Assembly: GCA_021773365.1 (NCBI GenBank)
Contig: JAJFKF010000024.1
Coordinates: 1-47,548 of the forward strand
DNA: 47,548 nt
Origin: Gammaproteobacteria bacterium
Lineage (GTDB): Bacteria > Pseudomonadota > Gammaproteobacteria > Steroidobacterales > Steroidobacteraceae
Direction: 5' to 3'
Below the pieces are notes generated by a model that had not been told where the DNA came from, ran no database searches, and saw only the letters and a program-made list of their open reading frames with translations. Each line of letters opens with the position of its first letter. Position 1 is the stretch's first letter. The translations under genes were made by a program, and so were the position numbers. Below, in pieces: positions 4,553-27,548 of this stretch.

Positions 4553-4584
4553 GATGGCTCGATGGCTCGATGGCTCGATGGCTC
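4553..4584. repeat. 8-bp tandem repeat, 4 copies (GATGGCTC)
   Basis: Four perfect head-to-tail copies of GATGGCTC occupy 4553-4584. The last copy runs into the start of the IS630-like reading frame (TGG CTC AAC CAA = WLNQ), so one unit comes from the transposase gene and the others probably arose by slippage. An 8-bp unit changes reading frame with each copy, and the number may vary between strains. Confidence 0.85.
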
Positions 4585-4793: not shown

Positions 4794-5046
4794 CCCCGAC
4801 CCTGTAGACCGAGCCCGGCAGGACCAAGGCATCTCCTGAGCAATTGGCGCTTAGACACCGACAAATGGCAGTGACACGGCGGACCTGCAGCCAAAGTGGC
4901 CGCAAAATGACGCTGGCCGCGCCGACCGGCTCCATAATTACCTGGGAAAACTGACGCCCGTTCTACACGCACGCACCGACCCGCCCCAGCCATCCCGCGA
5001 TGCAATGCTATGATCCGGCGCTTTATTGCCACCTCCGGGGGATTTC

Positions 5047-11307: not shown

Positions 11308-11357
11308 GAATTGCTCTTCATGACGACCGAGCAGGGAGCAAGGGACAGCACTCCGTT

Positions 11358-12353: not shown

Positions 12354-12940
12354 GGCCGTTCCTTCGCGGTATCACCCGCGGCATTGAGGCGACTTTCACA
12401 ATGCAGCAGCGCGCGGGCGATGTAGCGCTTGACGCTGCGGACATTGACGCTCAGCCGCAAGGCGATGTCATCCAGGGCCAGATCGTCGAACTTGCGCAGC
12501 ACGAAGGCCGCCCGGCACAGGGGCGGCAGCTCCGCGATCGCGCGCTCGATCAGCTCCAGGCGCTCGCGCGCAACCCACAGCGGCTCCGGTGAAGGCACGT
12601 CGGCGGCCCGGTCGAAGAACACCAGAGGATCGATACGCGCATGCCGGCTGCGCTGCTTTCTGCGGTCCTTGACCAGATTGGCGGCGGTCTGAAACAGGTA
12701 CGCCCGCAGATAACCCACGGTGCCGGGACTGTCGAGGTTCAACAGCTTGACGTAGGCCTCCTGGGCCACGTCCCGGGCTTCCTGCGAGGAACCGGTGCGC
12801 GCAGCCAGGAAACGCAGCAGCGCCTCGTTATGCTGACGGAACAGCCGCTCGATCTGCTGCGCATGACTCGCGCGCCCATCGCCCGTACCGCCGTCCGGCC
12901 GGGTCCTGTCGGGGCAGGGATCGGTTTCTTCCGGATTCAT
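12350..12940 (-). CDS. FecI-like ECF RNA polymerase sigma factor
   Basis: 196 aa from the ATG at 12940 (MNPEETD...); an upstream in-frame ATG at 12982 exists but adds only an unconserved tail. Sigma region 2 (IERLFRQHNEALLRFLAARTG...ARDVAQEAYVKLL) and region 4 (ELPPLCRAAFVLRKFDDLALDDIALRL...VKRYIARALLHCESRL) are both present, with no region 3, as in ECF factors of the FecI group. It should direct transcription of the downstream TonB receptor and possibly other targets once freed by the FecR. The roughly 100-nt spacer before it (12941-13041) would hold its promoter; none could be assigned with confidence. Confidence 0.93.
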   Translation of the reverse strand: MNPEETDPCPDRTRPDGGTGDGRASHAQQIERLFRQHNEALLRFLAARTGSSQEARDVAQEAYVKLLNLDSPGTVGYLRAYLFQTAANLVKDRRKQRSRHARIDPLVFFDRAADVPSPEPLWVARERLELIERAIAELPPLCRAAFVLRKFDDLALDDIALRLSVNVRSVKRYIARALLHCESRLNAAGDTAKERP

Positions 12941-13041
12941 GGGTTTTCTACCACTTCGAACCCCCAGACGACTGAGAAGCACAAAGGGGACAACAAAGGA
13001 ATGGGATCCGGCTATGGAATACCTATACAGATCAATAGCTT

Positions 13042-14865
13042 TCAGTAGCTCAGAACAATATTCCCCAGCACCGAGTACGGCACGGCGCCACCGAACAGAC
13101 GGCGGTATCCGCCGCCCGGAATAAGCGCGGCGGCGGACAGGCGCACCACGATGTTCTGCGTGGCCAGCGGCCGCCAGGTTGCCGCCACCGACAGATCCTG
13201 ACCGATGTCACGTCCGATCCCGGCCTGGTTGCGCGCCACCTCCAGCACCGCGGTATCGGCAAACATCAGCTGATTGAGATTGACGCTGAGGCGAAGCGTA
13301 GGCGTCAGATCCAGATCTGCGCCCAGCCCGAACAGCACCAATCCTGGATTTTCGAAGTTCGACTGCCCGAACTCCTTGCCTGGCCGCAGCGAGTTGAGCA
13401 GGCCGTTGCGGCCGGACAGCGCCACTCGTCCGCCGCCGATCAGCGGCACGGCCTGGCGCACCCAGAAGCTGGTGTCGGCGCCGGCAAACAAAGGGTTCTC
13501 GAAGATGGCGTCAAAACCGCTGGCCACATCATCGAACGGGTCCCTATCCGGGCTGGCGTAGGCCAGGGAAGCGCGGGCGCGGATCCAGTTGTAGTCACGG
13601 GAAACTTCCGCGGCGACGAAGGCCGCACGGATCTCCTGCTCCGTATCGACAAATACTCCGTGGGTGCTGCTGCCCAGTGCAGCGTAAGCCGCAGCGGTGA
13701 GATTCCAGCGACCGACATGCCCATCGCCATTCAGACCCAGGTACACCACGTCGTAGTCGCGGCCGCGCTCCTGCCCGATCGAGGCCGGACGCTGGATGAA
13801 GCCGTTGTCATCGTATCGCGTCTCGCCGCCCTCGCGATTGCGGTTGTAGACCAGCGTGGCCTGGGAGGTGAAACCGGCAACCGGAAAATCCTGCATGTAG
13901 GCATTGGCCGCGAACACATCGTCGTCGCGAAAGGCATCGCCGCCCAGCTCCACCAGGTTGTTCAGGCCGCTGTTGGTGTCCTTCTCCAGCCTGCGGAACC
14001 AGGCGAGATTGTACTGGTAGCGGTTGTTGGCGCGGGTGCCGAACAGGCGAATACCCGGCGCACTATCCTGAAAAAGAAAGCCGCGGAAGTCGGCAGTGAA
14101 GGGCTGGATACCGACGCGCAGACTATCGAAGTCGTAGCGGGATGAAACGTTGCGCAGATGTTTGTCGATGAACAGTGCCTGGATGCCGATGACGCCTTCA
14201 GTACGGCTCAATGGCGCGATCGCCCGTGCCTTGAGTACGCCACGCTCCTGCACGCTGGCGTGGTTGATATTGAACACCGGTGTGAAGCGAAACTCGTAGT
14301 CCGGTGGCTTGAAGACCGTATCGCCTTTGTAAATGACGCCCTCGACAACGAGATTGTGCACCAGCCCCAGCTGCTCACCATTGCCCAGGGTGTCCAGGCT
14401 GCCCGGCCCGCCGGCAACGGCCCCGGCTACCGGCGTGGGCAGGCTACGTTGCTCAATGACTGAGTCGGAAACCACGATCAGATTGACAAACCAGTCCTCG
14501 CCCCAGGCGGGCCGGTCGCCCTTCAGCCAGTTGTTACCGTTGTAGGGGTCGAGGAGATTCTCCGGGTAACCGAGCATGGAGGCCAGGCGCCAGCGGTCGG
14601 GTAGTCCCGTGGTGGTGCCGGAGTTGCCGGCATCCGTCAGCGGCAGGCGCGAGGGGTCGCAGGGGAACGGCTCCCAGCGCAGGATGGGCACTGTGGGGCT
14701 GCGACGCCGGGGATCTACCGGCACCTCCTTCGGGCAACGCACATCATCCCCGCCGGGCAGCCTGGGTTTTTCCTGAGCGCAGAGGCCGGCACACGGTGAC
14801 AGCAGCAACATGCCCAGACAAACATCGCGGAGCACGGCCGGCCGACGACAAGAATCACTTGCCAC
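13042..14865 (-). CDS. Outer-membrane beta-barrel protein, candidate electron-conduit porin
   Basis: About 607 aa from a GTG at 14865 that overlaps the upstream stop by 11 nt and has AGGA 8 nt before it; the frame is open to an ATG at 14934, so the start is uncertain. A signal peptide (CLGMLLLSPCAGLCA) precedes mature QEKPRLP. The rest is rich in alternating hydrophobic/polar strands and ends VLSY, an outer-membrane C-terminal aromatic. Near residue 95 is the segment NNWLKGDRPAWGEDWFVNLI, a pattern I associate with barrels encoded beside multiheme cytochromes; I know no named family. It is the last gene of the five-gene redox cluster, so it may form the pore that lets a cytochrome or electron carrier cross the outer membrane (inference). 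No CxxCH motif is present in this protein. Confidence 0.7.
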   Translation of the reverse strand: MASDSCRRPAVLRDVCLGMLLLSPCAGLCAQEKPRLPGGDDVRCPKEVPVDPRRRSPTVPILRWEPFPCDPSRLPLTDAGNSGTTTGLPDRWRLASMLGYPENLLDPYNGNNWLKGDRPAWGEDWFVNLIVVSDSVIEQRSLPTPVAGAVAGGPGSLDTLGNGEQLGLVHNLVVEGVIYKGDTVFKPPDYEFRFTPVFNINHASVQERGVLKARAIAPLSRTEGVIGIQALFIDKHLRNVSSRYDFDSLRVGIQPFTADFRGFLFQDSAPGIRLFGTRANNRYQYNLAWFRRLEKDTNSGLNNLVELGGDAFRDDDVFAANAYMQDFPVAGFTSQATLVYNRNREGGETRYDDNGFIQRPASIGQERGRDYDVVYLGLNGDGHVGRWNLTAAAYAALGSSTHGVFVDTEQEIRAAFVAAEVSRDYNWIRARASLAYASPDRDPFDDVASGFDAIFENPLFAGADTSFWVRQAVPLIGGGRVALSGRNGLLNSLRPGKEFGQSNFENPGLVLFGLGADLDLTPTLRLSVNLNQLMFADTAVLEVARNQAGIGRDIGQDLSVAATWRPLATQNIVVRLSAAALIPGGGYRRLFGGAVPYSVLGNIVLSY

Positions 14866-16831
14866 TGCAGGCGTCCTGCGTCGATGAATCCAGGAACGGA
14901 GACTGCGGACAGTTGACGTAGCGCAGGCGGGCACCGGCGGGCGTCAGCACGTCGGTGCGCAGATGGGCCGGAGCATTGTTGATGGTGCCCAGCTGCTGCC
15001 CGGCCTGATGCACCGCCAGCAGGGCAATCATGTCATCCTGGTCAACGCCGTCGCCCGAGACACCGATGCCGCCAACCAGCGTACTACCGCGATAAACGGG
15101 CACCGCGCCGGGAAAGATCTGCAGGCCGTTTGCCACGGCTGCAATGGCCGCTCCAGGCACAAAGCCGCCGCTGAAACCGCCGGTGCCGGTGCAGTTCGCA
15201 GCGACGTCGGGCGCCAGGCCCGCGACGAAGGCAACGTGCTGCACCAGCGCGTTGTGCACCAGGTCGAGCTGCAGGCCGGTGGAGAACGGACTCCACTGCC
15301 CCGCCGGCTTGCTCATCGGTCCGGCCGGCGCGCCGTTGGCGCCGTCGGGATAGTAGGGCCGGGAAAGATTGCCCAGCGCGCGGGCGGTGAAGGCCAGCTG
15401 CCCGTCGGCGAAGACATTGGGCAGACCGAGAAAGTTGCGGCCTGCACTGACGTACTGGCCCAGCGGCTCCGTGCGCAGCACCGCAAGTCCGCCGTCGAGG
15501 TACTCAGCGGGCGGCAGCGCCGACACCGCCGCGGCGGCGGCGGGCGACGAAAGGAAGGCAACCGTGCGCGCCTTCTGCACCGAGACATCGATGCCGAACA
15601 CGGGCGCGTCGCGACTGCTGACCAGTCCCAGGATCACGCCATTGGAATCGGTCACGGTAATGGTGACACGTGCCGCGGACCCGGCGGGCTGTCGAATCTG
15701 ACCGCGGGTGCGCGCCACCACCTGCAGGGCCTCGCGCAGAATCTGGCGCACCTCCGCCGTGGTCAGTGCATCCAGCACCTCGGTGCCGCCGATGGGCCGG
15801 TACCGCTCGCTGTTGGCAGTATCGACCAGAACAAACGCATCCAGCCCCGGATAGTCAAGCGCATCGGCGCGCACGCCGGAAGCCGGCTGGCCGAAGGCCG
15901 TGCCACTGCGCACCACGGCGGTGGCGTAGCCAGGCACTGCCAGCAGCACACCGGCAACACCGTTCAGCGCCGCAAAGGATGGCGCGCTCGCCGGTGCGCT
16001 GGCCAGATCATCAAAATCCGCATCACTGAAGCGCAGCGACTTGCCATCCACCACGATGCGCCCGGCGCGCCGCTCATCAGGCGCGGCGAAACCAAAACTG
16101 CCCGCCACCGCCACCTGTTCATCGAAATCCGCATCCGTGTCAGAGACGTTCAGATCCAGACCGTATACGCCGTCGGCAATGACGCCGATTGCTCCCACCG
16201 GCGTGCCGCCTTTGTACAGTGGCAATCCGCCGGGGTCCGCCGACAAACCAAGCGGTGAGCGCTTCGGTCCGGCATCCGCTGCGCCGCCGGCAAAGCGCGC
16301 TACCAGGTCTGAACAGGGCAACTGACTGAACTGCACACCGAACAAGGGCCCGGAGGGCGACAGCACCTCGCCGGGATTGAAATGCTCCTGCACGATCTGC
16401 CCGGCGGTACGCGTGCTGAAGGCATGACCTTCGGTGGACAGGTACGCACCGGTCACGGCCTTCGCAATAGCCGCCATACTGTCCGGCACGATGCTGACAC
16501 CCTCCAGTCCGCCGTCGGGCGTGGCGCCAGCCGCAGTCGAACGCACCGTCACGGTGGTCGCGGCGCCAGTCATGCGAAACACTGCCAGCACATTGCCCAC
16601 CCGGTCGGTCACGGCAATGGTGGCGCGCGCGCCGCGCGCCTGCGCCTCGAACACGGCCTGTGCCAGCACGCGCCCGACATCGGCCTGTGTCAAAAAACTC
16701 GCCGGTCCGGCACAGGACCCGGAACAGGAAGGTGTGGCCGGATCGACCGCGCCGACTGGTGAGTTGTCAGTGCCGCCGCCACCGCATCCGGCAACGAACA
16801 AAACCAACAGCGCTCCCCAGACAGGCTTCAC
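14855..16831 (-). CDS. Lipoprotein with two GlcG/HbpS-like (PF03928) domains
   Basis: 658 aa starting at a GTG that overlaps the upstream stop (GTGA). A short signal peptide ends in the lipobox LFVAGC (Cys16), so it is lipid-anchored, followed by a Gly-rich tether. Two copies of the GlcG/HbpS fold follow: about residues 48-240 (LTQADVGRVLAQAVFEAQARG...AITD-type strand, ending GGTPVGAIGVIADGVY) and about 355-630 (LTTAEVRQILREALQVVARTRG..., ending GSTLVGGIGVSGDGVDQDD). HbpS binds haem and acts in redox sensing; GlcG-like proteins are otherwise poorly defined. The second copy has a long insert. Its place between a ten-heme cytochrome and a beta-barrel suggests an extracytoplasmic haem- or cofactor-binding partner (inference). 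Confidence 0.82.
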   Translation of the reverse strand: MKPVWGALLVLFVAGCGGGGTDNSPVGAVDPATPSCSGSCAGPASFLTQADVGRVLAQAVFEAQARGARATIAVTDRVGNVLAVFRMTGAATTVTVRSTAAGATPDGGLEGVSIVPDSMAAIAKAVTGAYLSTEGHAFSTRTAGQIVQEHFNPGEVLSPSGPLFGVQFSQLPCSDLVARFAGGAADAGPKRSPLGLSADPGGLPLYKGGTPVGAIGVIADGVYGLDLNVSDTDADFDEQVAVAGSFGFAAPDERRAGRIVVDGKSLRFSDADFDDLASAPASAPSFAALNGVAGVLLAVPGYATAVVRSGTAFGQPASGVRADALDYPGLDAFVLVDTANSERYRPIGGTEVLDALTTAEVRQILREALQVVARTRGQIRQPAGSAARVTITVTDSNGVILGLVSSRDAPVFGIDVSVQKARTVAFLSSPAAAAAVSALPPAEYLDGGLAVLRTEPLGQYVSAGRNFLGLPNVFADGQLAFTARALGNLSRPYYPDGANGAPAGPMSKPAGQWSPFSTGLQLDLVHNALVQHVAFVAGLAPDVAANCTGTGGFSGGFVPGAAIAAVANGLQIFPGAVPVYRGSTLVGGIGVSGDGVDQDDMIALLAVHQAGQQLGTINNAPAHLRTDVLTPAGARLRYVNCPQSPFLDSSTQDACSGK

Positions 16832-18450
16832 TGCGCGGAAACCTCATGCGGCCACGGCGGACGTGAGGGAACATGAAAGTCATGACAGAGCGTGCAGGCG
16901 CTGGGCACCAGGTTTTCCGCGGTGTGTGCGCTGCGGCTGCCTGCGTGGCACTGGCGACACTGACCGATGTCCGGCATCAACACGTCCTCAGCCGCCCCCG
17001 AGTCCTTCGCCGCATGGCAGCTCTCGCAGGGACTGGCGGCAGTGGCATGTCTGGAATGATCGAAGCGCGCCCGCGGCATCCAGCGCCCGATGAGCTGCGC
17101 CGGTTCCACCCGCCACCGCGATCCTTCCGCACGCACCTCGTGGCAACTTGCGCACACGCGCCGCTCGAACAGATCGCGCGCGGTGACCTGTGCCTTCGCG
17201 CGCGCCAGTTCCAGGGCACGCTCGCGCTCGGCAGCATTCAGCACGACACCCGGTCTTTGCGCCATGCGGGAAGGCCGGGCCAGCGCCAGCGGATCGGGAT
17301 AGCTCTCCAGGTAGCGTGCGCTGTAGTACTCGATCAATGTCTGCAGCACCTGTCCGGCGTCTCCATGCGGCACCTGCCTTTGCGGATCGGCCGGATCGAA
17401 ATCCAGCCGGTGGCAATTCTGACAATGCGTCTCCATGCGAATGGGCTGCATGCGCGCCCCGCCCGGCTCCGGCCGGTGGCAGTCCGCGCAGCCCATCACC
17501 ACCGTGCCCTGCGGCGCCTTCAGCCCGGCCGGATCGAGATGCACATCGTGCGGAAATTTCAGGCCCGACCGATCCTGTCCGCCGAGCAGCGCATCCGCCT
17601 CGCGGAAGGGCGGGTGGTCTGTGAGGAAATCAGTTGCAATAAACTTCATATCTATATGATTCTTATGGTTTTCTTCGGTATTTTCATGGCAGCCCGCACA
17701 CAGCTGGTCGCCCGCCCTGAGCAGCTGTGCCGGCTGGTGTTCGGCGTGGCAGTCCGTACACCGCGCATCAGCGAAAGTGGCGTGACTTTCGGCATGGCTG
17801 TGCAGCGAGCCCGCATGGCAGGACAGACAGGCCCCGTCGCGAACCCTGACAAAGGGCTGCTCGTGACATTTTTCGCAGGTGCTGTCGAGCGTGCCATGTG
17901 CGGCGTGCAATGCGCCGCTGCGCCACCAGCCATCATCCGGAAAGGGCATGGTGCGCAGCGCCTGCTGCAGGTCCGCATCCTTCACACCCAGCGCCGGTAT
18001 GAACAGACAGGCTGCCAGCACGCCGACAAACAGCGCCCATGACACCCACCGCGTGCGCAGACGCAGGTCCAGCCTGGGTGTCAGCGGCGCCGTCTCCACG
18101 GCGCGCGCGGCCGGATCGAGCTCGACGGTGAAGGCCAGATCGAATCCCGCGGGCGGGTCGAAGAGCTTCAGCAGGTTCGATCCGATGCCGACGGTATCGC
18201 CCACCCGCAGCTGCGCGTCGCGCTGCACGGCACCGTTGACGATGACGCCGGCGGTGGCACTGCTGGAAATGAGGATGCGCCCGCCGCTGTGCAGGATGCG
18301 CGCATGCTTGAGCGCCACGCGCCGGTCCTTCAGGTGCAGTACGCGGTCGGTGGCGCGACCGAGCGTCAGGCTGTCGCCCTCGAACACCCGCTCGCGCTGC
18401 TCCACCGTACCGGTGGCGCTGCGGGTGAGGAAGCGGATCAGGGCGCGCAT
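16828..18450 (-). CDS. FHA domain - transmembrane helix - decaheme c-type cytochrome fusion
   Basis: 540 aa. Residues about 20-98 form an FHA domain (SLTLGRATD at 28-35, LKHARI replacing the usual SxxH segment, VIVNGAV near 69-75). A transmembrane helix lies at about 135-154. The remainder contains ten CxxCH haem c sites, starting at C192, C208, C231, C251, C321, C343, C433, C475, C498 and C519, plus many free His that could be distal ligands. The FHA part must face the cytoplasm and the haems the periplasm. FHA domains bind phospho-threonine, so haem electron transfer may be tied to a Ser/Thr kinase; no kinase is in the window. No N-terminal signal peptide is seen; the internal helix would act as the export anchor. 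The gene begins 7 nt after the cytochrome b-like gene and overlaps the next start by 4 nt. Confidence 0.92.
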   Translation of the reverse strand: MRALIRFLTRSATGTVEQRERVFEGDSLTLGRATDRVLHLKDRRVALKHARILHSGGRILISSSATAGVIVNGAVQRDAQLRVGDTVGIGSNLLKLFDPPAGFDLAFTVELDPAARAVETAPLTPRLDLRLRTRWVSWALFVGVLAACLFIPALGVKDADLQQALRTMPFPDDGWWRSGALHAAHGTLDSTCEKCHEQPFVRVRDGACLSCHAGSLHSHAESHATFADARCTDCHAEHQPAQLLRAGDQLCAGCHENTEENHKNHIDMKFIATDFLTDHPPFREADALLGGQDRSGLKFPHDVHLDPAGLKAPQGTVVMGCADCHRPEPGGARMQPIRMETHCQNCHRLDFDPADPQRQVPHGDAGQVLQTLIEYYSARYLESYPDPLALARPSRMAQRPGVVLNAAERERALELARAKAQVTARDLFERRVCASCHEVRAEGSRWRVEPAQLIGRWMPRARFDHSRHATAASPCESCHAAKDSGAAEDVLMPDIGQCRQCHAGSRSAHTAENLVPSACTLCHDFHVPSRPPWPHEVSAQ

Positions 18451-18457
18451 GAGCGGC

Positions 18458-19336
18458 TCACCAGTACAGGAACACGCTGACCACGTGCGCGATCAGCGCT
18501 GCCAGCAGCGCAATGGACAGGGGGATGTGCACGTACAGCCAGATCTGCAGCCAGGCACGGATCTGCGCATCGCGCAGCAGTTTGCGCAGCAGAACGCGCC
18601 GGGCGCCGAGCAGCGTCAGCAATTCCTGTATCTGCCGTGTCTGTTCGCCGGCGGAGCTGCGCGACAGCTGCCCGCTCAGCCAGTCGATCACTGCCCGCTG
18701 ATCGTCATTGGTCAACACCGCCGCCCACCCGCCGGCAGGCAACACGATGCGCGAACGGTCGCGGCCGCCGAGCAGCGCCCACAGATTGCCGCCTATCAGG
18801 GTACGGTCGCGGTTACTTTGCAGGACTTCAGTGAACTCATGTGGCAGCGGTGCGGCCTGCCGCAGGGCGCGCTGATCGAGACTGGCCAACTCCTCCAGCA
18901 TCTGGACGCGCGTGAGGTCACTGCGGTTGGCGCTCATCTGTGCCGGATAGCGCAGGTACGCGAACACACCGAACATGCCGCTGAATATCACGGCACACAT
19001 GAGCACGTAGGCAAAGGTGTGGATATTCCAGCCGAACTGCCAGCCGCTGTGCAGGGAGACGATCAGCAGCAGCGCGGTGCCAAGGTAGACATGCGCAGAG
19101 AGCCAGCCCTGGACAGTGCCAAGCGTGGAGCGATAGCTGCGTTTGCGCAGACCGAAGGCGAGCAGCCAGAGGATCAGCGCCGCGCCGATGCCGCCGAGGG
19201 TGTAGCCCAGCCAGGTGCCGCCGCTGGGCGTGTCGACGGGGTCGTGCCAGATGTAGATCGCCAGGCTCAGGGCGGACAGGACCAGGGCTATCCAGAGGTA
19301 GCGTTTGCCGGCATAGGCGAGGATGGAGTCGTGCAT
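18458..19336 (-). CDS. Bis-heme b-type membrane protein (ferric-reductase/cytochrome b-like)
   Basis: 292 aa from the ATG at 19336; the frame is open to 19408, but that extension runs into the palindromic repeat and is unlikely to be translated. Predicted helices are near residues 13-31, 42-63, 79-96, 107-127 and 268-290. Two His pairs each separated by 13 residues, H82/H96 and H270/H284, sit in helices, the classic spacing for two b-haems stacked across a membrane. The sequence is only weakly like ferric-reductase-type (PF01794) proteins, so a named family is not given. About 140 soluble residues lie between the helical parts. It stands between the cytoplasmic Fe-S flavoprotein and the decaheme protein, fitting a transmembrane electron relay (inference). 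Confidence 0.78.
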   Translation of the reverse strand: MHDSILAYAGKRYLWIALVLSALSLAIYIWHDPVDTPSGGTWLGYTLGGIGAALILWLLAFGLRKRSYRSTLGTVQGWLSAHVYLGTALLLIVSLHSGWQFGWNIHTFAYVLMCAVIFSGMFGVFAYLRYPAQMSANRSDLTRVQMLEELASLDQRALRQAAPLPHEFTEVLQSNRDRTLIGGNLWALLGGRDRSRIVLPAGGWAAVLTNDDQRAVIDWLSGQLSRSSAGEQTRQIQELLTLLGARRVLLRKLLRDAQIRAWLQIWLYVHIPLSIALLAALIAHVVSVFLYW

Positions 19337-19379
19337 GGTTATGCAGGTGTTGCAGGAATCGAGTTGGGACAGGTGGTGG

Positions 19380-19466
19380 GCGCCGGTGTGGTCAGCAGAG
19401 TTATCCACAGTTTAAGGGCGGAGATTCCCCAGAAACTATGGATAACTCTGCTGACCACACCGGCGC
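19380..19466. repeat. Family B long palindrome, copy 1
   Basis: Arms of 33 nt (19380-19412 and 19434-19466) are complementary except at one position. The 21-nt centre contains the asymmetric core AGGGCGGAGATTCCCCA (19415-19431). The left arm carries a perfect DnaA-box sequence TTATCCACA (19401-19409), the right arm a one-mismatch version on the other strand (19437-19445). Core and inner arms recur inverted in copy 2; the outer roughly 18 nt of each arm are specific to this copy. It lies between the flavoprotein and cytochrome b-like genes. Confidence 0.9.
19401..19409 (+). promoter_or_regulatory. DnaA-box-like sequence
   Basis: TTATCCACA is identical to the strict DnaA-box consensus. It lies in the left arm of the first family B palindrome. 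Whether DnaA binds here is unknown; the match may simply be part of the repeat. Confidence 0.45.
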
Positions 19467-19513
19467 AGCCGGCGTCACGGTAGTTCCTGAAGAGAGATCT
19501 TGATGACCTGTGA

Positions 19514-19596
19514 GGAGAATGGGCCGGGCAAGTTATCCACAGTTTATGGGGAATCTCCGCCCTTAAACTGTGGGTAACTTGTCCGGCCCATTCTCC
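19514..19596. repeat. Family B long palindrome, copy 2 (inverted relative to copy 1)
   Basis: Arms of 33 nt (19514-19546 and 19564-19596) pair with two mismatches around a 17-nt centre, which is the exact reverse complement of the copy 1 core. The left arm has a perfect DnaA box (19533-19541) and the right arm a one-mismatch version. The right end lies 41 nt downstream of the flavoprotein stop codon. Outer arm sequence differs from copy 1 although each copy is internally symmetric. Confidence 0.9.
19533..19541 (+). promoter_or_regulatory. DnaA-box-like sequence
   Basis: A second perfect TTATCCACA, 132 nt from the first, in the left arm of the second family B palindrome. Same caution as for the first. 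Confidence 0.45.
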
Positions 19597-19637
19597 CGCA
19601 CACCCCAGGATCAAAGATTGCCGCAGTGAGAAGGCGC

Positions 19638-22043
19638 TCATTCGCTCACCAGCTCGACAAACTTCTCGGGACTGATGCGGATCGCCGCTCCGGTGGGACA
19701 GGCACGCACGCAGGCCGGCCCGCCGGACAGGTCCTTGCACATGTCGCACTTGACGGCCTTCTTCGGCGTGTCCTTTCCTGTCGTCTTTGAAGCTGTCTGC
19801 TGGCCCGGCCCCGGTCCGCTGCCAAAAAGCAGCCAGGACATCAGGCCGGGTTTGGCGGGTGCTTCGGCGGCCATCTGGATGACGCCGTAGGGACAGTTGT
19901 TCATGCAGTTGCCACAGCCGATGCAATTGTCGCGGATAAACACCTCGCCGTTGGGTGCACGGCGGATGGCGTCGGGCGGACAATCCTTCATGCAGTGCGG
20001 GTCTTCGCAGTGACGGCAGGAGGTCGGCACATGAACCTGCGCAAAGGTGGGGCCGGCTTCGCGATTCAGGCGCGAGGTGCCATCATGGGTTTCTGCGCAG
20101 GCTTTCTCGCAGTTGTCACAGCCCACGCACAGTTCGGCATCGATCAGCAATACGTCGGTGGCCTCACCCAGGCCCTGACTCATCAGAAAAGATATCAAGT
20201 CGCCCGCCTGGGGCTGATCCTGCATGCGCATGTTCTCGGTCAGGCGCTTGCGCATGGTGGCCTGCACCTCCTCGCGCAGCGCCGGGTTGCTGTCGAGCAG
20301 GAGGTTGAAGGCCTGCGCATCGATGCTGATGGTCTCGGTGGCCACGGTGGCGCGCACGGTGGCGCTGCGGCGGGTGCCGCCCAGCAGACCCATCTCGCCG
20401 ACGTAGTTGCCGGCAGCCACATAGGACGTCACCACTTCGCGGCCGCCGATGTTGCGGGATACGGATACCGAACCGCTGCGGATCAGGTGCAGGCAGTCGG
20501 CGGCATCGCCGTCGGCGAAGAGGGCCTGGTCGGGTTTGTAGCGGTTCAGGCACGCGCCATGCACCACGACCCGCAGTTCCTCGGCGCTGGCCTGCGGGGC
20601 GAAACTCGATTGCAGGGCACGCACGACGAAGTGTTCGTCGATGACGCGCTTGACGCCATCGGCGGAGTTGATGAGTTTCAGGATTTCCCGCCGGGGGGAT
20701 TCCACCAGCACGCAACCCGGGCCGGCGCGCACGGTGCCGGAGCGGCGCCGACCTGACAGCAGACTCATTTCGCCGAAGAACTCTCCGGCGTGCAGCGTCA
20801 CCTGCGGGGCGCCCTCCTGGCCGTCCGCGGTATCGATATGCACGCTGCCGTCGAGAATGGCAAAGAAGCTGTTGGTGTAGTCGTTCTTGCGGAAAACCAC
20901 TTCCCCCGGCGGCGGCGTGGCGACGTTGCTGCCGAGGATGAGTTCGCGAAACAGCAACGGATTGATGGCAGCGAACAGCGGCACGCGCGCCTGCATCAGC
21001 GCCAGGGTGTCATCCACCGCCAGGCCGTACGGCAGGACAGAGAATTTTTTCTCCAGCAGCGGGTGGTCGGCGGGCTGGATGGAGCGGCCGAGCAGATACT
21101 CCACCGCCTCGTAGCCTTGGTTCATCGCCTGTTTGATCAGCGGGTAGCCGCCGAGGGCACCGATGACATACAGGCCCGGAACATTCGATTCGTACTGCGC
21201 GCTCAGCTGCGGCAGCGCCGTGAAGTCCTCGTTCGGGAAGACGATGCCGCAGGACTCGACGAACTTGCGCGGCGGCACCGCGCCGATGCGGGCAATGATG
21301 CGATTACACTCGATGCGCGCCTCGCCGTGGGCGGTATCCAGCATCAGGGCGTAGGGACGCGCGCCCTGCGCAACCGCTTCGACGCCTGCGCAGCTGGCGC
21401 GGTAGAAACATTCGATGCGTCCCTCGTCGACGGCCTTGAGCACCAGATTGAGGTTGCCTTCCTTGACGCGGGTAAACTCCTCACCGCGGTTGATCATGAA
21501 CACCTTGTTCTGCCGCGTAAGCGCGATGGCGTTTTCGATGGCGGCATCGCCGGCGCCTACCACCACAATGGCTTCCTCGCTGTATTCGTCGGGGTCGTCG
21601 AGCGTGTACTGCACGCAGGGCAGGTCCTGACCGGGTACGCCGAGGCGGCGGGGATTGCCCTGTACGCCAATGGCGAAGATGACATGTTCGGCGGCGAGGC
21701 GTTCGCCGGTTTTCAGTTCGATGTCGAAGCGGGGCTTGCTGCCGGTGAGTTTGACTACTTCGGCGTCATAGCGGGCGTTGACGCCCTGCTGCTCCAGACC
21801 GGTGCGCCAGCGTTCAAGAATGGTTTCGCGGGTGCCGGCTTCGAACGGCAGGGGGCTGCGCAGGGGGAGCACGTTGGGCTCGGCCATCACGTGCTTGCCT
21901 TTCTGGTAGCGCTGGATGGTGTTGGCGTGAGCGGGGCCGGACTCCAGCAGGATGTGCGGCAGGCCAAGTTCGGCGGCATGCGCGGCGGCGCTCAGGCCGC
22001 CTGGGCCTGCGCCGATGATGGCTACTTTGTAGATCTCCCCCAC
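19638..22043 (-). CDS. Flavoprotein with two cyclic-nucleotide-binding domains and a four-cluster ferredoxin module
   Basis: 801 aa, GTG start with AGGT 8 nt upstream. Residues 1-330 form a two-dinucleotide-fold oxidoreductase: FAD motif GAGPGG (11-16) and a second GAGDAAIE (163-170) for NAD(P)H. The redox CxxC of thioredoxin reductase is absent, so it is closer to YpdA-like reductases. Two cNMP-binding domains follow at about 360-475 and 500-605; both keep the phosphate-binding Glu and Arg (E425/R435 and E550/R559 in FGEMSLL...RRSGTV and VGEMGLL...RRSATV). The last 165 residues contain sixteen Cys in four CxxCxxCxxxC-like groups (639-649, 676-688, 707-717, 766-782), like HycB/DmsB subunits, for four [4Fe-4S] clusters. 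No signal peptide, so cytoplasmic. Likely role: NAD(P)H- or quinol-linked electron transfer gated by cAMP (inference). Confidence 0.9.
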   Translation of the reverse strand: MGEIYKVAIIGAGPGGLSAAAHAAELGLPHILLESGPAHANTIQRYQKGKHVMAEPNVLPLRSPLPFEAGTRETILERWRTGLEQQGVNARYDAEVVKLTGSKPRFDIELKTGERLAAEHVIFAIGVQGNPRRLGVPGQDLPCVQYTLDDPDEYSEEAIVVVGAGDAAIENAIALTRQNKVFMINRGEEFTRVKEGNLNLVLKAVDEGRIECFYRASCAGVEAVAQGARPYALMLDTAHGEARIECNRIIARIGAVPPRKFVESCGIVFPNEDFTALPQLSAQYESNVPGLYVIGALGGYPLIKQAMNQGYEAVEYLLGRSIQPADHPLLEKKFSVLPYGLAVDDTLALMQARVPLFAAINPLLFRELILGSNVATPPPGEVVFRKNDYTNSFFAILDGSVHIDTADGQEGAPQVTLHAGEFFGEMSLLSGRRRSGTVRAGPGCVLVESPRREILKLINSADGVKRVIDEHFVVRALQSSFAPQASAEELRVVVHGACLNRYKPDQALFADGDAADCLHLIRSGSVSVSRNIGGREVVTSYVAAGNYVGEMGLLGGTRRSATVRATVATETISIDAQAFNLLLDSNPALREEVQATMRKRLTENMRMQDQPQAGDLISFLMSQGLGEATDVLLIDAELCVGCDNCEKACAETHDGTSRLNREAGPTFAQVHVPTSCRHCEDPHCMKDCPPDAIRRAPNGEVFIRDNCIGCGNCMNNCPYGVIQMAAEAPAKPGLMSWLLFGSGPGPGQQTASKTTGKDTPKKAVKCDMCKDLSGGPACVRACPTGAAIRISPEKFVELVSE

Positions 22044-22091
22044 GGTTTGTACCTGTCAGCCGAGCGAGCCTGCGAACAATGTTCGTGGGAA

Positions 22092-22213
22092 GCGGAATCT
22101 GCATCGGGGAGGGCTTTCCAGGACCGCCCGTGAACCCATCCATGGGGGGCTTCGGCAAAAACCATCCTGGGTTTTTGACGATCCTGGAAAACCCTCCCCG
22201 ATACAGATTCCGC
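22092..22213. repeat. Family A three-arm palindrome, copy 1
   Basis: Outer arms of 35 nt (22092-22126 and 22179-22213) pair with three mismatches. Inside are two small hairpins: CCCAT-CC-ATGGG at 22135-22146 and an AAAAACC/GGTTTTT stem at 22157-22176. The whole would fold as a three-way junction. It starts 34 nt downstream of the FecR-domain gene stop and lies before the flavoprotein gene. Related copies are at 27627-27743 and from 47463. Confidence 0.9.
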
Positions 22214-22247
22214 CCGCAATGTTGGTGGAACGCACAAACAAGGGCAT

Positions 22248-23891
22248 CTACGGATTCTTGAGTGCCACGGTGCCGTTGACCTGCAATGCGTCTGAGCCGT
22301 CGATCAGTGAGTAGGTCAGGCCCACGGTACCGGGGATACCCGGGGTGCCACCGCCGCCCTGGCTGAAGAAGCCGGCGAAGGAGCCGCTGGCGTCGCTCTG
22401 GACGGGGTTGATGGTGCCCGTATAGGCGCCGGAGAACTGGTGGGGTTCGTCGCCGAGCTGGAGATTGCCGATGGTGCCGGTGCCGGCGACGACCCAGTTC
22501 AGGGTGTTGACGGTGAGGTCGAGGGTGCTGGTGACGGTCTGGGCGGTGAAGTTGGCTGAGAACGTGGCGGCGTTCAGGACGCCCACATTACCGGCGTTGT
22601 CGGTGGGACTGGTGTTGCCCACTGCGGTGTAGGTGGCGATGCCTGTGGTGGGCATCTGCGGGGGTGTGGCGGCATTGCCGCTGTCTATCCAGTGCAGGCT
22701 GCGCTGACTGAGGTCTTCGGTGAATGTCTGGTCGGCGACTGAGAGACTGATGGCGCCGCCGGACCAGCGGCCCCAGCGTAGCGAGGTGCCGGCCAGGGCG
22801 CCGGATTCGACTACGGTACTTGTGCCGATGTCGATGGTGCTCAACATGCCGATGCCGCGCGCAAGGTCCTGGGCAAAGCGCGTGACGTCACCGGAGAAAT
22901 CAGTGTCGTAGCTGGCGGGGACGTTGCTCTCCACCGCGGCGATGTCGATGGGCTGCGCGAGTTGCAGGATGGAGAAGGCGATGTCGCGGCGCTGCGGGGT
23001 GGGTTTACCGCCGGTGATGTCTGCCGGATTGCCGTTCGGATCGGTACCGGTCACCGGCTGGCGCACCGTATCGGCGCCGCCTGCGGCGCCCTCCGGCTGT
23101 GCACCGGGGACCGACTGCGGTCCGCGGCGATTGTTGTCCAGTTCCCGCGCCTGCACGGCAATGCCTTTGGCGCTGCTGCGCAATGCGCCGAGCTTCAGCG
23201 GACCGGCGCCGTCCTCGATGAGGAAGGCTGGCGGATTCTGCAGCGGTTCGGGCCGTGCACCACTGAGCGGGATGAATATGGTTTCACCAGCGCCTACTTC
23301 GATCTCACGGCTCCCACCACGGAACACAATGCGTCCTGCCGTAACGTGCAGATACAACCCGTCGCGCACTACGGCGCCCGGCGCCAGTCCAGGCGCATCG
23401 TTGCAGTCACCGGCGCAGAACACTGCCGTGTAGTCGGTACCGCGAATGCCCAGCGTGCCAATTGGCGTGCGCACTTCATAGGCGCTCTTGTCGATTTTGC
23501 CGATGGCTCCCGTCTGCGTGCGGAAGCCGCCCTTGAGCAGACTGGCCACACTGCGCCCGTCGGTCTTCACCACCGTGGCTTCCGCCGGCGCATTCACCGC
23601 CGGCGGCAATGCAAAGTCATCAATCCGGAACCGGCTCCCCGCCCGCAGCGCGATCTTGGTGCTATCGGCCATCAGCAACTGCGCCCGCGCCTTCTCGCCC
23701 GTCACGACAATATCGCCAACTTCGACTGGGTCCTTCACCTTGAGCGGCACCGTTGTCTCCCGCTCCAGACTCACCGGTCCGGTCACAAAAACCGCCTTCC
23801 CGGCAGCAGCCAACACCGGCCCCGACGCTATCAGCAACGCAATACCAAGCGCCGCGCCCTGGAAACGACTCATTCTTGTCTTCTTCTGCAT
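22248..23891 (-). CDS. Secreted FecR-domain protein
   Basis: 547 aa, ATG preceded by GGAGG at ideal spacing. Signal peptide about residues 1-29 ending GPVLA. A FecR domain (PF04773) spans about 45-190 (VEVGDIVVTGEKARAQLLMADSTKIALRAGSRFRID... IGTLGIRGTDY... VTAGRIVFRGG), without the cytoplasmic sigma-binding part of true anti-sigma factors. The C-terminal 300 residues are low-complexity and beta-rich (AVGNTSPTDNAGNVGVLN..., repeated Gly/Thr/Asn stretches). This type of FecR protein is frequently encoded with CHASE2-cyclase genes, as here, and is thought to be an extracytoplasmic partner of unknown role. It is the last of three genes in that unit, 21 nt after the barrel gene. Confidence 0.85.
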   Translation of the reverse strand: MQKKTRMSRFQGAALGIALLIASGPVLAAAGKAVFVTGPVSLERETTVPLKVKDPVEVGDIVVTGEKARAQLLMADSTKIALRAGSRFRIDDFALPPAVNAPAEATVVKTDGRSVASLLKGGFRTQTGAIGKIDKSAYEVRTPIGTLGIRGTDYTAVFCAGDCNDAPGLAPGAVVRDGLYLHVTAGRIVFRGGSREIEVGAGETIFIPLSGARPEPLQNPPAFLIEDGAGPLKLGALRSSAKGIAVQARELDNNRRGPQSVPGAQPEGAAGGADTVRQPVTGTDPNGNPADITGGKPTPQRRDIAFSILQLAQPIDIAAVESNVPASYDTDFSGDVTRFAQDLARGIGMLSTIDIGTSTVVESGALAGTSLRWGRWSGGAISLSVADQTFTEDLSQRSLHWIDSGNAATPPQMPTTGIATYTAVGNTSPTDNAGNVGVLNAATFSANFTAQTVTSTLDLTVNTLNWVVAGTGTIGNLQLGDEPHQFSGAYTGTINPVQSDASGSFAGFFSQGGGGTPGIPGTVGLTYSLIDGSDALQVNGTVALKNP

Positions 23892-23912: not shown

Positions 23913-25226
23913 TCACTGAAAGCTCCGCCGAACAAACACCCCGATCTCCCACCGATCATGCTCATACAAAGAGACATTGGAATCCCGGCGCACGTAGCGG
24001 ATGCGTGGATTCACCACCCATCCCTTGCGCGGCCAGTTCTGATACTCCGTAGCCACCAGCGCACTGAACTCCTCGTCCCTGCGCACTACGCCGAAAAACC
24101 CCGGCGTATCATCAAAATCCGTCTCCATATACCCGGCTTCCAGGTATATGCCGCTCTGCGGCGCCAGCGCCCAACCGGCAAACACCCGCGCACCCATCCG
24201 TTCATTGCCGAACGCCGAGGCCTGCAGCCGTTCCTCATCAACGCCGCCCAGCAGGATCGCGCCAAACCGTCCCGCCCGACTGCCGATGTTGAGCCGGCTC
24301 AACGACAGCGCTCCAAGCAACCGGTCCACATCCAGCAGCTCCAGAGCCGGATCGCGATAGCGCAGCACTCCACGCCGCATCGTCAATCCAAGCTCCCAGC
24401 TCTGCGCCAGCCGGCGAGCCACTCCGGCATCAAGCCCGGCGCCCCACTCATGGTCATCGCCATCCAGCAGGCCGAAATAGCCGCTGACACCGATGTTTCC
24501 ACGCCAGCGCGAACGCGCCCAGTTCACTCCACTGTTCAGTGATCCGATGCTCTGGTCAACGAAATCCGCCTGCGGATTGAAGCGATGACTCAGTCGCAGG
24601 CCATTCACCCAGGCCGTGTCCTGCCGTCCGCCCACCGGAGCGGCGTGGTTCAGGCCGGCAGCCAGTTCCATGAAGCCGGACGAAGTCTCGACATTGCGCG
24701 GATCTAGCATGAAGCCCAGGAAGGTCTGCTCGGAAGTGGAGCCGTTGGCATTGGTGTCATACCCCGCCCCGAACTCATAGAACGGTCGTACGCCAAAGCC
24801 GGCGCGGCGCGTGGGACGGTCGATGGCGGCAAGGTACTGCTCGATGACGGCGCGGGTCTGTGGCGGCGGGGACTGACCCAGCAGGTACTGGAACTGGTTG
24901 CGCGCGACCTGCAGATCGCCGGACTCGAACTGCGCCCGCGCCAGCTCCATGCGCGCGCCCGGAAAATCCGGCTCAGCGGCCACGGCTCGCTCGAGACTGA
25001 AAACCGCCTCCCCTGCCCGGCCACTGTCCAGCGCGGCCATGCCGAGCAGATAGTCGTACGCGGGATCGCCGGCCCAGTCCAGCTCCTGCGCGGCCAGCAA
25101 CTGGTAGGCCGCACCGGCATCGCCGGCAGCCAGTAACTGGCGGGCGTCATCCAGCACATCGGCGCAGGCGCAGCGCAGGGAAAGTGTGCCGAGCGTCACA
25201 AGAATCGACAAGGTCACAGCCCGCAT
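23913..25226 (-). CDS. TPR-containing outer-membrane beta-barrel protein
   Basis: 437 aa with AAGGA upstream of the ATG. Signal peptide ending CACA (about residue 22). Residues about 25-135 make TPR-type helical repeats (LDDARQLLAAGDAGAAYQLLAAQ..., AVFSLERAVAAEPDFPGARMELARAQFESGD). From about 145 the sequence becomes beta-strand-rich, as in surface-lipoprotein-assembly-modifier (Slam/DUF560)-like proteins, and ends RRSFQ. It may be a barrel with a periplasmic helical domain that handles export or display of another protein, possibly the FecR-domain protein encoded next (inference). It lies between the cyclase and FecR genes in a three-gene unit. Confidence 0.75.
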   Translation of the reverse strand: MRAVTLSILVTLGTLSLRCACADVLDDARQLLAAGDAGAAYQLLAAQELDWAGDPAYDYLLGMAALDSGRAGEAVFSLERAVAAEPDFPGARMELARAQFESGDLQVARNQFQYLLGQSPPPQTRAVIEQYLAAIDRPTRRAGFGVRPFYEFGAGYDTNANGSTSEQTFLGFMLDPRNVETSSGFMELAAGLNHAAPVGGRQDTAWVNGLRLSHRFNPQADFVDQSIGSLNSGVNWARSRWRGNIGVSGYFGLLDGDDHEWGAGLDAGVARRLAQSWELGLTMRRGVLRYRDPALELLDVDRLLGALSLSRLNIGSRAGRFGAILLGGVDEERLQASAFGNERMGARVFAGWALAPQSGIYLEAGYMETDFDDTPGFFGVVRRDEEFSALVATEYQNWPRKGWVVNPRIRYVRRDSNVSLYEHDRWEIGVFVRRSFQ

Positions 25227-25298: not shown

Positions 25299-27548
25299 CT
25301 ACTTGGTTTCAAACACGTATACCCCATCCCAGTCATCCGGCGGCGGAAAGGCACGGCAGCGGGCGATCCGCTCCAGGTACATGGTGTACAGCGGCCGCGG
25401 ATCGGTCCGTACCAGCTCATTCAGCACCTCCAGCGCCTCATGCCAGCGCTGGGCGCGGTAGTTCTCCAGTACGGAGCTGAACGCCTCTACCGCCTCCAGC
25501 TCGGCGCTCGCGACATGCCCACGCAAACCCACCGGCTGCAGAATGGCCACCGGCTCGTTCTTGCCCTTCACCCGCACCCGATCCAGCTCCCGGAATACCA
25601 CATCGTCAACGGCGTCAGCCGTCGGGCCGCTGACGATGATGTCAACGCCGTATTGTTTGGTCAGTCCCTCCAGCCGTGAGCCCAGGTTCACGATGTCACC
25701 AAGCACCGTGTAGGCCACGCGGAACTGCGAGCCCATGTCGCCGACGCTCATGACGCCGGTGCTGATACCCACGCCGATGCGGATCTGCGGCCAGCCCTGC
25801 GCCTTGAAGACCGGCTGCAGTTCATGCATCGCCCGGAGCATGGCCAGCCCGCCATGCACCGCGTTGCGCGCGTGCTGCGCGTCCGGCAGCGGCGCGCCCC
25901 AGAAAGCCATCACCGCATCGCCCATGTACTTGTCGATGGTGCCGTTGTGCCTCTGGATGATCTCGGTGATGGGCGTAAGAAACTCATTCATCAGCCGCGT
26001 CAGCTCGCGTGGCTCCAGCCCTTCGGAAATAGTGGTGAATCCGCGCACGTCCGAGAACAGCACCGACATCTCGCGGCTCTGGCCCTCCAGCGTCAGGCGC
26101 GCATCGTCGGGCTCGAGTTTGCGCACCACCTCGCCGGGTACGTACTGACTGAAGATGCCCATGATGCGCCGCTTGCGGCGGATCTCCACGAAGTAGCTGT
26201 AGCTCAGCTGCAGCAGCGCAGCCACCAGTATGTAGGCAACAAACGATGCGACGGGCAGTGCAGCGCCGGAGTGTTTCCACAGCCACAGATTCGCCCCTCC
26301 CCAGGCGCCGATCAATCCGGCCACCAGCAGCAGGCCACCCTGTGGCGAGAGACGCCCGAGCCAGAAAGCGGCTATCAGGGCGAGGACGATGAGGCCGATG
26401 ATCTCCACCTGCGTGGTGTAGGCGGGAATGAAGGGCACGGCGCTGTCGAGAATGCCGGCCACCATGTTGGCGTGCGCCTCCACGCCGATGTACTCCCTGG
26501 CCACCGGCGTCGGACGGATATCCAGCAGGCCGGGCGCGCTGGTGCCGATGAGCACGATGGCATTGCGCATCAGCTCCGGATCGGCCGTTCCCTTGAGCAC
26601 CCGTGTCGCCGGAACATAGGGAAAGCTGCCAACGGGACCGCGGAACGGGATCAGCGCCGCGGCACGCGAATCAACCGCGATGCGTACGTCTCCCAGCCTG
26701 ATGGCATCGAGCCGCGGTCTGACGCCGGCATCCTCCTGCACAATTTCCAGTTGCACCGGCGGGGAACCCAGCGCCAGGCGCGCGACAACGAAAGCCAGAG
26801 ATTCGTAAAGCCGGCCGTCATACATCTGCAGCACTGGCGTACGCCGTACGATGCCATCAATATCCACCAGCGGCGTATCGAAGAAACCACCCGCCACCGC
26901 CTCCTGCAACATGGCAAGGTTGCCGGTGTAGCCAGCCGGACGCACCCAGTCCACCTCCCTGACCGACTGTCCTTGCAGATCAAACGGCGGCGGCAGCACA
27001 TTCTTGGCGGCTGGCTCGCCGGGCGCCAGCTGGCGCTTGAAGACATAGCCCAGCACCGCATCGCGCGCGATCAGCGACTCGGCGAACAACCGGTCGGTTT
27101 CATACTGTGCGCGGCGCGCCTGCAGATCGGCGCGCCGGGCCTCGTCGATATCTGCATCGTCGGTGAGATCATCGATGAGCCGCAGGGCCAGTGGCGACTC
27201 GGGCTCAGGGAACATGACGTCGAAGCCCACCACGCGCACTTCGTAGTCGTCGAACAGGCGATTGACCAGAGTGGCCAGCTTGTCGCGCGGCCAGGGCCAG
27301 TGCCCCTCCTCCGCCTGGCTGAGCTCGTCGATGTCGACGATGACCACGCGTGGGTCGACGCCTTCCTGCAGGGTGAGGCGTACGCGCAGGTCGTAGAAAT
27401 AATTCTCGACGCGGGTGAGCAGTTCAACGGGCCAGATGCCGAGGGCATGGGGAATGAATATGAGCAGCGGCAGCACGCCAATGGCAATGCGTACCAGCTG
27501 CCGCCGTGACGGGCGCAGCGCGCCCGGGACAGTTGAGAATCTCCCCAT
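25299..27548 (-). CDS. CHASE2-domain class III adenylate cyclase
   Basis: 749 aa. A first membrane helix near residues 19-38 is followed by an extracytoplasmic CHASE2 sensor (about 45-340; DPRVVIVDIDELSQAEEGHWPW, GFDVMFPEP), three more helices (about 345-440) and a cytoplasmic class III nucleotide cyclase domain (about 490-680). The metal-binding Asp residues are in FSDVRGFTTISE and KYMGDAVMAFWG; the latter Lys and the LGDIVNLGSRL segment are those of adenylate rather than guanylate cyclases. It converts ATP to cAMP in response to an unknown envelope signal. It leads the unit with the TPR/barrel and FecR-domain genes. Two cNMP-binding domains are encoded 3-7 kb away in the flavoprotein, a plausible but untested target. 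Confidence 0.93.
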   Translation of the reverse strand: MGRFSTVPGALRPSRRQLVRIAIGVLPLLIFIPHALGIWPVELLTRVENYFYDLRVRLTLQEGVDPRVVIVDIDELSQAEEGHWPWPRDKLATLVNRLFDDYEVRVVGFDVMFPEPESPLALRLIDDLTDDADIDEARRADLQARRAQYETDRLFAESLIARDAVLGYVFKRQLAPGEPAAKNVLPPPFDLQGQSVREVDWVRPAGYTGNLAMLQEAVAGGFFDTPLVDIDGIVRRTPVLQMYDGRLYESLAFVVARLALGSPPVQLEIVQEDAGVRPRLDAIRLGDVRIAVDSRAAALIPFRGPVGSFPYVPATRVLKGTADPELMRNAIVLIGTSAPGLLDIRPTPVAREYIGVEAHANMVAGILDSAVPFIPAYTTQVEIIGLIVLALIAAFWLGRLSPQGGLLLVAGLIGAWGGANLWLWKHSGAALPVASFVAYILVAALLQLSYSYFVEIRRKRRIMGIFSQYVPGEVVRKLEPDDARLTLEGQSREMSVLFSDVRGFTTISEGLEPRELTRLMNEFLTPITEIIQRHNGTIDKYMGDAVMAFWGAPLPDAQHARNAVHGGLAMLRAMHELQPVFKAQGWPQIRIGVGISTGVMSVGDMGSQFRVAYTVLGDIVNLGSRLEGLTKQYGVDIIVSGPTADAVDDVVFRELDRVRVKGKNEPVAILQPVGLRGHVASAELEAVEAFSSVLENYRAQRWHEALEVLNELVRTDPRPLYTMYLERIARCRAFPPPDDWDGVYVFETK

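Follow-up and report, generated by a model that had tools for sequence, protein, structure and literature searches.

The window analysed here is a 47,548-nucleotide stretch of a Steroidobacteraceae genome (positions 1-47548 of contig C74, in an assembly of 3.97 Mb and 157 contigs), in which five genes, here called g1 to g5, encode the larger part of a putative electron-transfer system spanning the cell envelope. All five open reading frames (ORFs) are open on the minus strand within 13042-22043 and follow one another from g1 to g5, confirming the strand and gene order given in an earlier description of this DNA made without database searches (the sequence-only reading). The five-gene set proposed there is real but incomplete, as two further multihaem cytochrome genes, g6 and g7, belong to it.

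The first gene, g1 (19638..22043, minus strand), encodes a YpdA/thioredoxin-reductase-like domain for flavin adenine dinucleotide (FAD) and NAD(P), two cyclic nucleotide monophosphate (cNMP)-binding domains and four [4Fe-4S] motifs. Pfam assigns Pyr_redox, two cNMP_binding stretches and Fer4, the last in a C-terminal ferredoxin-type region, and the PF00027 match (127.5 bits, two stretches) identifies the cyclic nucleotide-binding domains. Among 88 g1 relatives, a set that includes repeats of the same loci, the four [4Fe-4S] motifs are kept in every one. An NRxx[ED]xxR stretch that follows the second Rossmann motif in 78 of the 88 is, we presume, reminiscent of NADPH-binding motifs. Thioredoxin reductases are recognized by a CxxC disulfide, and g1 is unlikely to be a disulfide reductase because no CxxC occurs within residues 100-220 in any of the 88 relatives. 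Its scores for thioredoxin and bacillithiol disulfide reductases also fall well below the cut-offs (YpdA, 121.3 versus 339.9 bits; TrxR, 62.9 versus 343.45 bits). Matches to Pycsar proteins in PADLOC are confined to the cNMP region and do not suggest a defence role. The domain content of g1 suggests a cytoplasmic entry point for electrons.

The next two genes are predicted to form an inner-membrane module. For g2 (18458..19336, minus strand, likely start ATG 19336) we predict a membrane protein with two b haems; five of its histidines (H82, H96, H106, H270 and H284) are invariant in 45 of 45 relatives, in an alignment drawn from 44 of 65 listed stretches plus the window. The pairs H82/H96 and H270/H284 are each 14 residues apart, a spacing known from stacked b haems, and lie inside, or on the border of, hydrophobic segments 3 and 5. 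The cytochrome b561 match of g2 itself is below threshold, with 30 of the 45 members matching at E<=0.01, and a comparison with PDB sequences gave no convincing match (best E 0.1). The g3 protein (16828..18450, minus strand) is predicted to combine a cytoplasmic forkhead-associated (FHA) domain, a single membrane helix and ten periplasmic CXXCH haem sites. Pfam detects FHA plus cytochrome c3/c7, and the hydrophobic stretch at about residues 136-156 is preceded by arginines. In a less selected set of relatives, ten CXXCH motifs were counted in 63 of 67, seven in three and eight in one; the g3 of locus L145 has nine. Across the 73 g3 sequences analysed, for which additions were limited to those scoring >380 with ten CXXCH (excluding L094, L099, L104 and L116), the ten haem histidines and ten further, distal histidines are all invariant. 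Compared with PDB sequences, g3 showed weak similarity to FHA and cytochrome proteins (best E 0.0002). The genome also encodes a CcmF/NrfE-family haem lyase, which counts in favor of an electron-transfer role; in locus L139 a gene of this family (3407-5515) lies directly beside g1 on the opposite strand.

The last two genes of the window's set point to the outer membrane. The g4 product (14855..16831, minus strand) is a predicted lipoprotein with HbpS/GlcG-like domains, matching PF03928 in three stretches at 68.6 bits (cut-off 25), and the cysteine at its lipobox position, Cys16, is invariant in 9 of 9 sequences. No Pfam or NCBIfam model matches g5 (13042..14934, minus strand, start codon uncertain) at E<=0.1, and its only PDB sequence match is Midnolin at E above 4. 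Its AlphaFold2 model (predicted local distance difference test, pLDDT, 84.8) has 18 long strands and superposes on AlgE with a Z of 28.5 and a root-mean-square deviation of 3.0 over 364 residues at 13-14% identity, and we predict an outer-membrane barrel of 18 strands with an AlgE-like fold. The alginate-export family PF13372 (Alginate_exp) is not matched by the g5 of the window and is touched weakly by 7 of 54 members (best E 0.0012), in an alignment covering 53 of 58 listed stretches plus the window.

Tight spacing, another feature claimed by the sequence-only reading, holds for the joints after g2, with 7 nucleotides (nt) between g2 and g3, a 4-nt overlap of g3 and g4, and an overlap of up to 80 nt between g4 and g5, the last depending on the uncertain g5 start. 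It does not hold between g1 and g2, which lie 301 nt apart when counted from the likely ATG. Two dispersed, palindromic inverted repeats resembling repetitive extragenic palindromes (REP) fill this gap (19380-19466 and 19514-19596), and 66 related matches, both orientations counted, occur across many of the genome's contigs. Since g1 and g2 usually touch in other loci (median distance to the first aligned residue about -6 nt, range -26 to 301, n=64), the gap in the window looks like an insertion of repeats. The palindromes at 19380-19596 contain TTATCCACA, which we take to be a DnaA-box-like string. No promoter-like site was found in 12900-22300, and terminator-like sites there are at chance level.

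The two genes missing from the window lie on contig C21 of the same genome (13454-18429, locus L046), where g6 and g7 are 72% and 55% identical to those of a relative and are preceded by what reads as a FecR-like gene. The g6 product, about 1,250 residues long, carries ten CXXCH motifs followed by LVIVD repeats that would form a propeller; ten motifs are present in 48 of 49 sequences and seven in one (score above 1700). At about 440 residues, g7 has four CXXCH motifs and one CX4CH, giving five haem sites, and is incomplete in some loci. A candidate distal histidine is invariant for all five of these haems in 23 of 23 sequences, for which reason g7 looks like a wire rather than a catalyst, and an NrfA-like catalytic pentahaem was rejected on the same observation. 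The g6 sequence has no match in the PDB, and the folds matched by its model are mostly assorted propellers. Downstream of g5 in the window (8143-12982) are sigma-factor and FecR genes (Pfam) and an ORF that reads as a TonB receptor. The operon appears to have split at the g5-g6 joint in this genome, possibly at sigma/FecR/TonB-receptor loci.

Conservation and arrangement of the seven genes

Close relatives of g2 (46-100% identity) were found in 9 of 100 genomes of the family, the window's included, and 42 others have distant matches only; this comparison used a longer g2 ORF, which starts 24 residues ahead of the likely ATG. All eight other genomes with a close g2 carry g1 to g5 in the same order, with one g1 cut by a contig end. 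In all eight g6 follows g5, one being represented by its start only at a contig end, and g7 is present in the seven where the contig continues.

A wider scan of genome contigs with the g1 alignment yielded at least 531 confirmed relatives, of which the best 80 were analysed. All 80 are deposited under proteobacterial names, and isolate records among them include Dokdonella, Lysobacter, Alcanivorax, Solimonas, Tahibacter, Oceanibacterium, Pseudomarimonas and Cognaticolwellia; the depositor names Klebsiella and Bordetella on some metagenome bins look implausible and were not relied on. Because these loci overlap the family genomes (for example L061/L033, L053/L034, L054/L037 and L096/L137), locus counts are not independent. 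Among the 61 of these best 80 loci in which 7 kb or more follow g1, g2 to g5 are present in 50, so that the co-occurrence in other genomes on which the sequence-only reading depended is borne out, and the arrangement is not due to chance. Wherever 600 nt or more of sequence follow g5 (56 loci), g6 is present.

Six of the remaining 11 loci are rearranged to g3-g4-g5-g6-g7-g1. In two of these (L146 and L147) g2 was read directly before g3, giving the order g2-g3-g4-g5-g6-g7-g1, and in the other four the coordinates put a strong match to g2 no more than about 1.3 kb from where the locus ends. Locus L117 has g6, g7 and g1 together with g2 on another contig, and in L088 g1 stands alone. A g2 match was recovered in 20 of 20 genomes behind 20 chosen loci, two of these matches being fragments. 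In Sphingobium herbicidovorans, [g1-g2-g3-phosphoesterase] is adjacent to and convergent with [g7-g4-g5-g6], with all seven genes confirmed by profile; in strain MH, g1 to g3 are B6S01_RS18455-RS18445, and g7 with g4 to g6 are RS18410-RS18425. Genomes of families f42/f43 (L138-L143) have these inner and outer modules adjacent, convergent or hundreds of kilobases apart.

Retention of the genes was also followed across 299 sampled genomes from the phylum, that of the window included. Ten of these (about 3%) have g2 (E<=1e-30), and g6 occurs in 7, each of which also has g2. In three of the 7 shared genomes g2 and g6 are unlinked, lying >600 kb apart in G302 and G414 and on different contigs in the genome of the window. 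The link between the two is therefore not merely physical, as they are retained together when far apart. Correlations of identity distances over 42 loci reach 0.93-0.94 within g1-g2-g3 and 0.90 for g5-g6, a pattern that fits two modules, although shared ancestry alone raises such values. Taken together, the conserved gene set, its rearranged orders and its co-retention when unlinked support the seven genes as one functional unit. The set is conserved but unnamed in a scattered minority of Proteobacteria, culturable soil bacteria among them. The annotations in Sphingobium herbicidovorans MH are limited to 'cyclic nucleotide-binding', 'hypothetical', 'cytochrome c3 family', 'cytochrome c family', 'heme-binding' and 'multiheme'.

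Cyclic-nucleotide genes beside the cluster

Upstream of g1 on the same strand, Pfam identifies a FecR-domain gene (22248..23891), a gene for a TPR protein resembling surface lipoprotein assembly modifiers (Slam-like, 23913..25226) and a CHASE2-domain class III adenylate cyclase (25299..27548), a likely source of cyclic AMP (cAMP). The cyclase matches PF00211 at 73.9 bits (cut-off 21.9), retains by reading the metal Asp, Lys, Asp, Asn and Arg of the class III catalytic-residue motif, and has one other class III cyclase beside it in the gene complement of this genome. The cyclase-TPR-FecR block recurs upstream of g1 in nine other loci (ten with the window), with the cyclase truncated in one. In another class of the phylum, all six f42/f43 loci carry a phosphoesterase gene, directly after g3 in five, which belong to one family; in L139 it is about 4.7 kb distant and neighbours a CHASE2-cyclase-like gene that matches the window's at 79 bits. 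The three of the six proteins that were scanned are related to SpdA (133-141 bits, cut-off 400) and CpdA (67-98 bits, cut-off 225) but score below both NCBIfam cut-offs, so that cyclic-nucleotide-phosphodiesterase-like is the name used for them here. Sphingobium herbicidovorans likewise has a metallophosphoesterase after g3.

Because cyclase or phosphodiesterase-like neighbours occur in separate lineages, this gene context supports regulation of the system by a cyclic nucleotide. The sequence-only reading had proposed a candidate cAMP-gated chain; the link to cyclic nucleotides stands, through the cyclase in ten loci and the phosphodiesterase-like gene, and the gating of g1 by cAMP is what we infer from it. 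Fusions of an aquaporin/glycerol facilitator to a cNMP-binding domain were also seen upstream of the cluster in L032 (780-1919), L036 (785-1972), L037 (776-1939), L054 (5157-6320, the same place as L037) and L074 (5085-6272), by Pfam in L037 and as homologues in the others. A glutamate dehydrogenase gene lies around g1 in nine loci (L067, L075, L080, L088, L098, L101, L138, L139 and L142), that of L142 being NADP-specific by NCBIfam.

Known systems and competing explanations

One close parallel is with MtrCAB-type conduits (Shewanella; also MtoAB, and Pcc of Geobacter), in which a barrel is encoded together with ten-haem cytochromes and an inner-membrane cytochrome supply. Here, in contrast, g3 has its own membrane helix, entry is through a flavin/Fe-S/cNMP protein instead of a quinol oxidase, and g5 is modelled as an 18-strand AlgE-like barrel. 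NCBIfam holds MtrB-type and OmcA/MtrC-type models, and an MtrB-type barrel has 26 strands in its solved structure. At E<=0.1, g5 has no MtrB-type match in NCBIfam or Pfam, MtrB is absent from the 50 fold matches listed for g5, and the two g6 proteins examined have no OmcA/MtrC-family match in NCBIfam. The g3 score for TIGR03508 (DmsE/MtrA-type decahaem) is 28.4 bits (cut-off 192.2), and its weak PF22113 match reaches 20.0 bits (cut-off 30). Because curated cut-offs are missed, Mtr family membership was rejected, in agreement with the view of the sequence-only reading that none of the proteins is an Mtr homologue.

Other systems resemble parts of the set. Hmc, Tmc and DsrMKJOP of sulfate reducers combine cytoplasmic Fe-S, haem b membrane and multihaem c subunits. 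The inner half of our system resembles these transmembrane redox modules without belonging to them: g1 weakly matches the HmcB and DsrO models and g3 the TmcA model, all far below the cut-offs, and the sulfate-reducer modules have no outer-membrane counterpart. We know of no flavin or cNMP domains in them. MmcA of the archaeon Methanosarcina acetivorans is linked to Rnf. As described in PMC11024163, this multihaem c cytochrome is able to reduce extracellular acceptors with no Mtr barrel, the feature that it would share with the present system. The extHIJKLMNOPQS cluster of Geobacter sulfurreducens shares a porin-like protein, several multihaem cytochromes and a cytochrome b, and ExtM is the best NCBIfam match of g6 (68.7 bits in this genome and 49.4 in a relative, against a cut-off of 800); the accessible text of PMC5877670 names no counterpart of g1, g3 or g4. 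The same text gives MtrB 28 predicted motifs, implicates the porin ExtI in selenite/tellurite reduction and describes it as not needed for Fe(III) citrate reduction. To AlgE, an alginate exporter, g5 is alike in its 18-strand fold only.

Our preferred explanation, to which we assign a probability of about 0.6, is that g1 to g5 are most of a seven-gene trans-envelope system, tuned by cAMP, that passes electrons outward. From the parts, cofactor motifs, co-conservation and cyclase or phosphodiesterase-like neighbours that can be read in the sequences, we infer haem loading, gating by cAMP, the direction of flow, passage through the outer membrane and the acceptor, as follows. In the cytoplasm, g1 would take electrons from NADPH or NADH through FAD to its four [4Fe-4S] clusters, switched or tuned through its two cNMP domains by cAMP from the adjacent CHASE2 cyclase. 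The two b haems of g2 would carry the electrons across the inner membrane to g3, whose ten bis-His c haems could serve as a periplasmic wire and whose cytoplasmic FHA domain may dock or regulate g1. From there they would pass to the five-haem g7 and then to the ten-haem, propeller-bearing g6, both presumably anchored to the outer membrane through g5 and g4, and most likely outward to an extracellular or surface acceptor. Cofactor content supports the path from cytoplasm to periplasm, and export across the outer membrane is the likelier outcome within this best explanation.

Several observations weigh against this explanation, whose weakest step is an Mtr-like crossing of the outer membrane. 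The modelled g5 barrel is smaller than an MtrB-type sheath. The g6 consensus has no conserved lipidation cysteine, no usable model of its haem half was obtained (pLDDT 56.9), and its model is poor outside the C-terminal propeller. Loci L105, L106 and L119 have g1-g2-g3 and g7-type genes with no g4 to g6 nearby, within the locus stretch, and g2 occurs without g6 in 3 of the 10 g2 genomes of the phylum sample (G264, where the contig ends just after g5, and G120 and G153, where g2 is distant). The chain may thus end in the periplasm, as the AlgE-like model of g5 and the weak relation of g6 to ExtM also suggest. The co-occurrence of g2 and g6 has a hypergeometric probability of 3e-12 with kinship ignored, and 5 of the 7 shared genomes are of one family. 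Of all the families, g4 tracks the others least (0.57-0.77, 42 loci). By sequence reading, the FHA domain of g3 also lacks the Ser usually found ahead of the conserved His, and no phosphoesterase was found in the examined stretch of six loci under alphaproteobacterial names (L105, L107, L109, L122, L124 and L126).

The predicted 18-strand AlgE-like barrel makes a solute channel feeding a periplasmic reductase a serious rival, which we consider possible, at clearly less than even odds. Here g5 and g4 would admit or bind a small substrate (a metalloid oxyanion, iron/haem or a catechol-like ligand), g6 and g7 would reduce it with electrons from g1-g2-g3, and none would cross the outer membrane. 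The resemblance of g5 to solute and polysaccharide porins (AlgE, OprD-type) fits this account, as do the haem-binding-family domains of g4 and a region of g6 (residues 345-440, A8 numbering; 42 of 44 listed stretches aligned) where many positions outside the haem motifs are also invariant, much like an active site. ExtM also belongs to a selenite/tellurite operon whose porin, ExtI, is a proposed selenite/tellurite channel in the accessible text of PMC5877670. However, g6 scores far below the ExtM cut-off, the invariant distal histidines of g7 are wire-like, and no substrate is indicated. It is less probable still that the cluster is a constitutive redox system in which the cNMP domains, for instance as structural domains, and the nearby cyclase are incidental. 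The strict form of the cNMP phosphate-binding motif occurs only once in 25 of the 88 g1 relatives and is absent from 3, no cyclase block was seen in 88 of 98 neighbourhood sources (which include repeats of the same loci, with the stretch examined often short), and the phosphoesterase appears there in just six loci, from two families. On the other side, both strict motifs are present in 60 of the 88 and a relaxed form at least once in all 88, and a cyclase match >250 bits was found in ten sources over 1.77 Mb, versus about 0.9 expected from the density in the genome of the window, with kinship ignored.

We regard as very improbable an inward chain, in which extracellular Fe(II) or some other donor would feed the quinone/NAD pool. 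No account of the system was found in the open-access papers searched, subscription papers and preprints being outside the search. The nearest trace, in Table 1 of PMC10734462, is a cluster of 'Forkhead-associated protein' with 10 haem motifs, classed as 'Other', in 27 of 87 iron-oxidizing Gallionellaceae; these may be g3 homologues and, if so, would favor uptake. A 'cAMP-binding' gene cluster in Table 2 of that paper was considered as g1 and dropped, as it is annotated with a mechanosensitive channel. Against uptake, g1 and g2 include no recognized pump. Reduction of NAD(P) by Fe(II) is strongly uphill, and to our knowledge the carriers Sphingobium, Dokdonella and Alcanivorax are not lithotrophs.

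Returning to outward transfer, the observation behind the sequence-only reading was right and is more general than first claimed, and its interpretation is partly supported: the regulated chain across both membranes holds in outline, its inner part by cofactor content, and is unproven at the outer membrane. A more ambitious proposal, which we advance only tentatively, is that the genes represent an undescribed class of trans-envelope export in which cytoplasmic NADPH is drained through cAMP-gated Fe-S, haem b and haem c centres to the surface, bypassing quinones. If true, Proteobacteria, culturable soil aerobes among them, would possess a multihaem-wire equivalent of the NADPH oxidases. The well-studied conduits of the Mtr and Geobacter types draw on inner-membrane quinols and are known from metal-reducing anaerobic growth. 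In the present system, which Sphingobium herbicidovorans and other culturable bacteria carry, electrons would enter through a flavoprotein of NAD(P)H type that has its own cyclic-nucleotide domains. Confirmation would mean that such bacteria have an electron outlet under second-messenger control, and the role of their multihaem cytochromes could then be tested by gene deletion.

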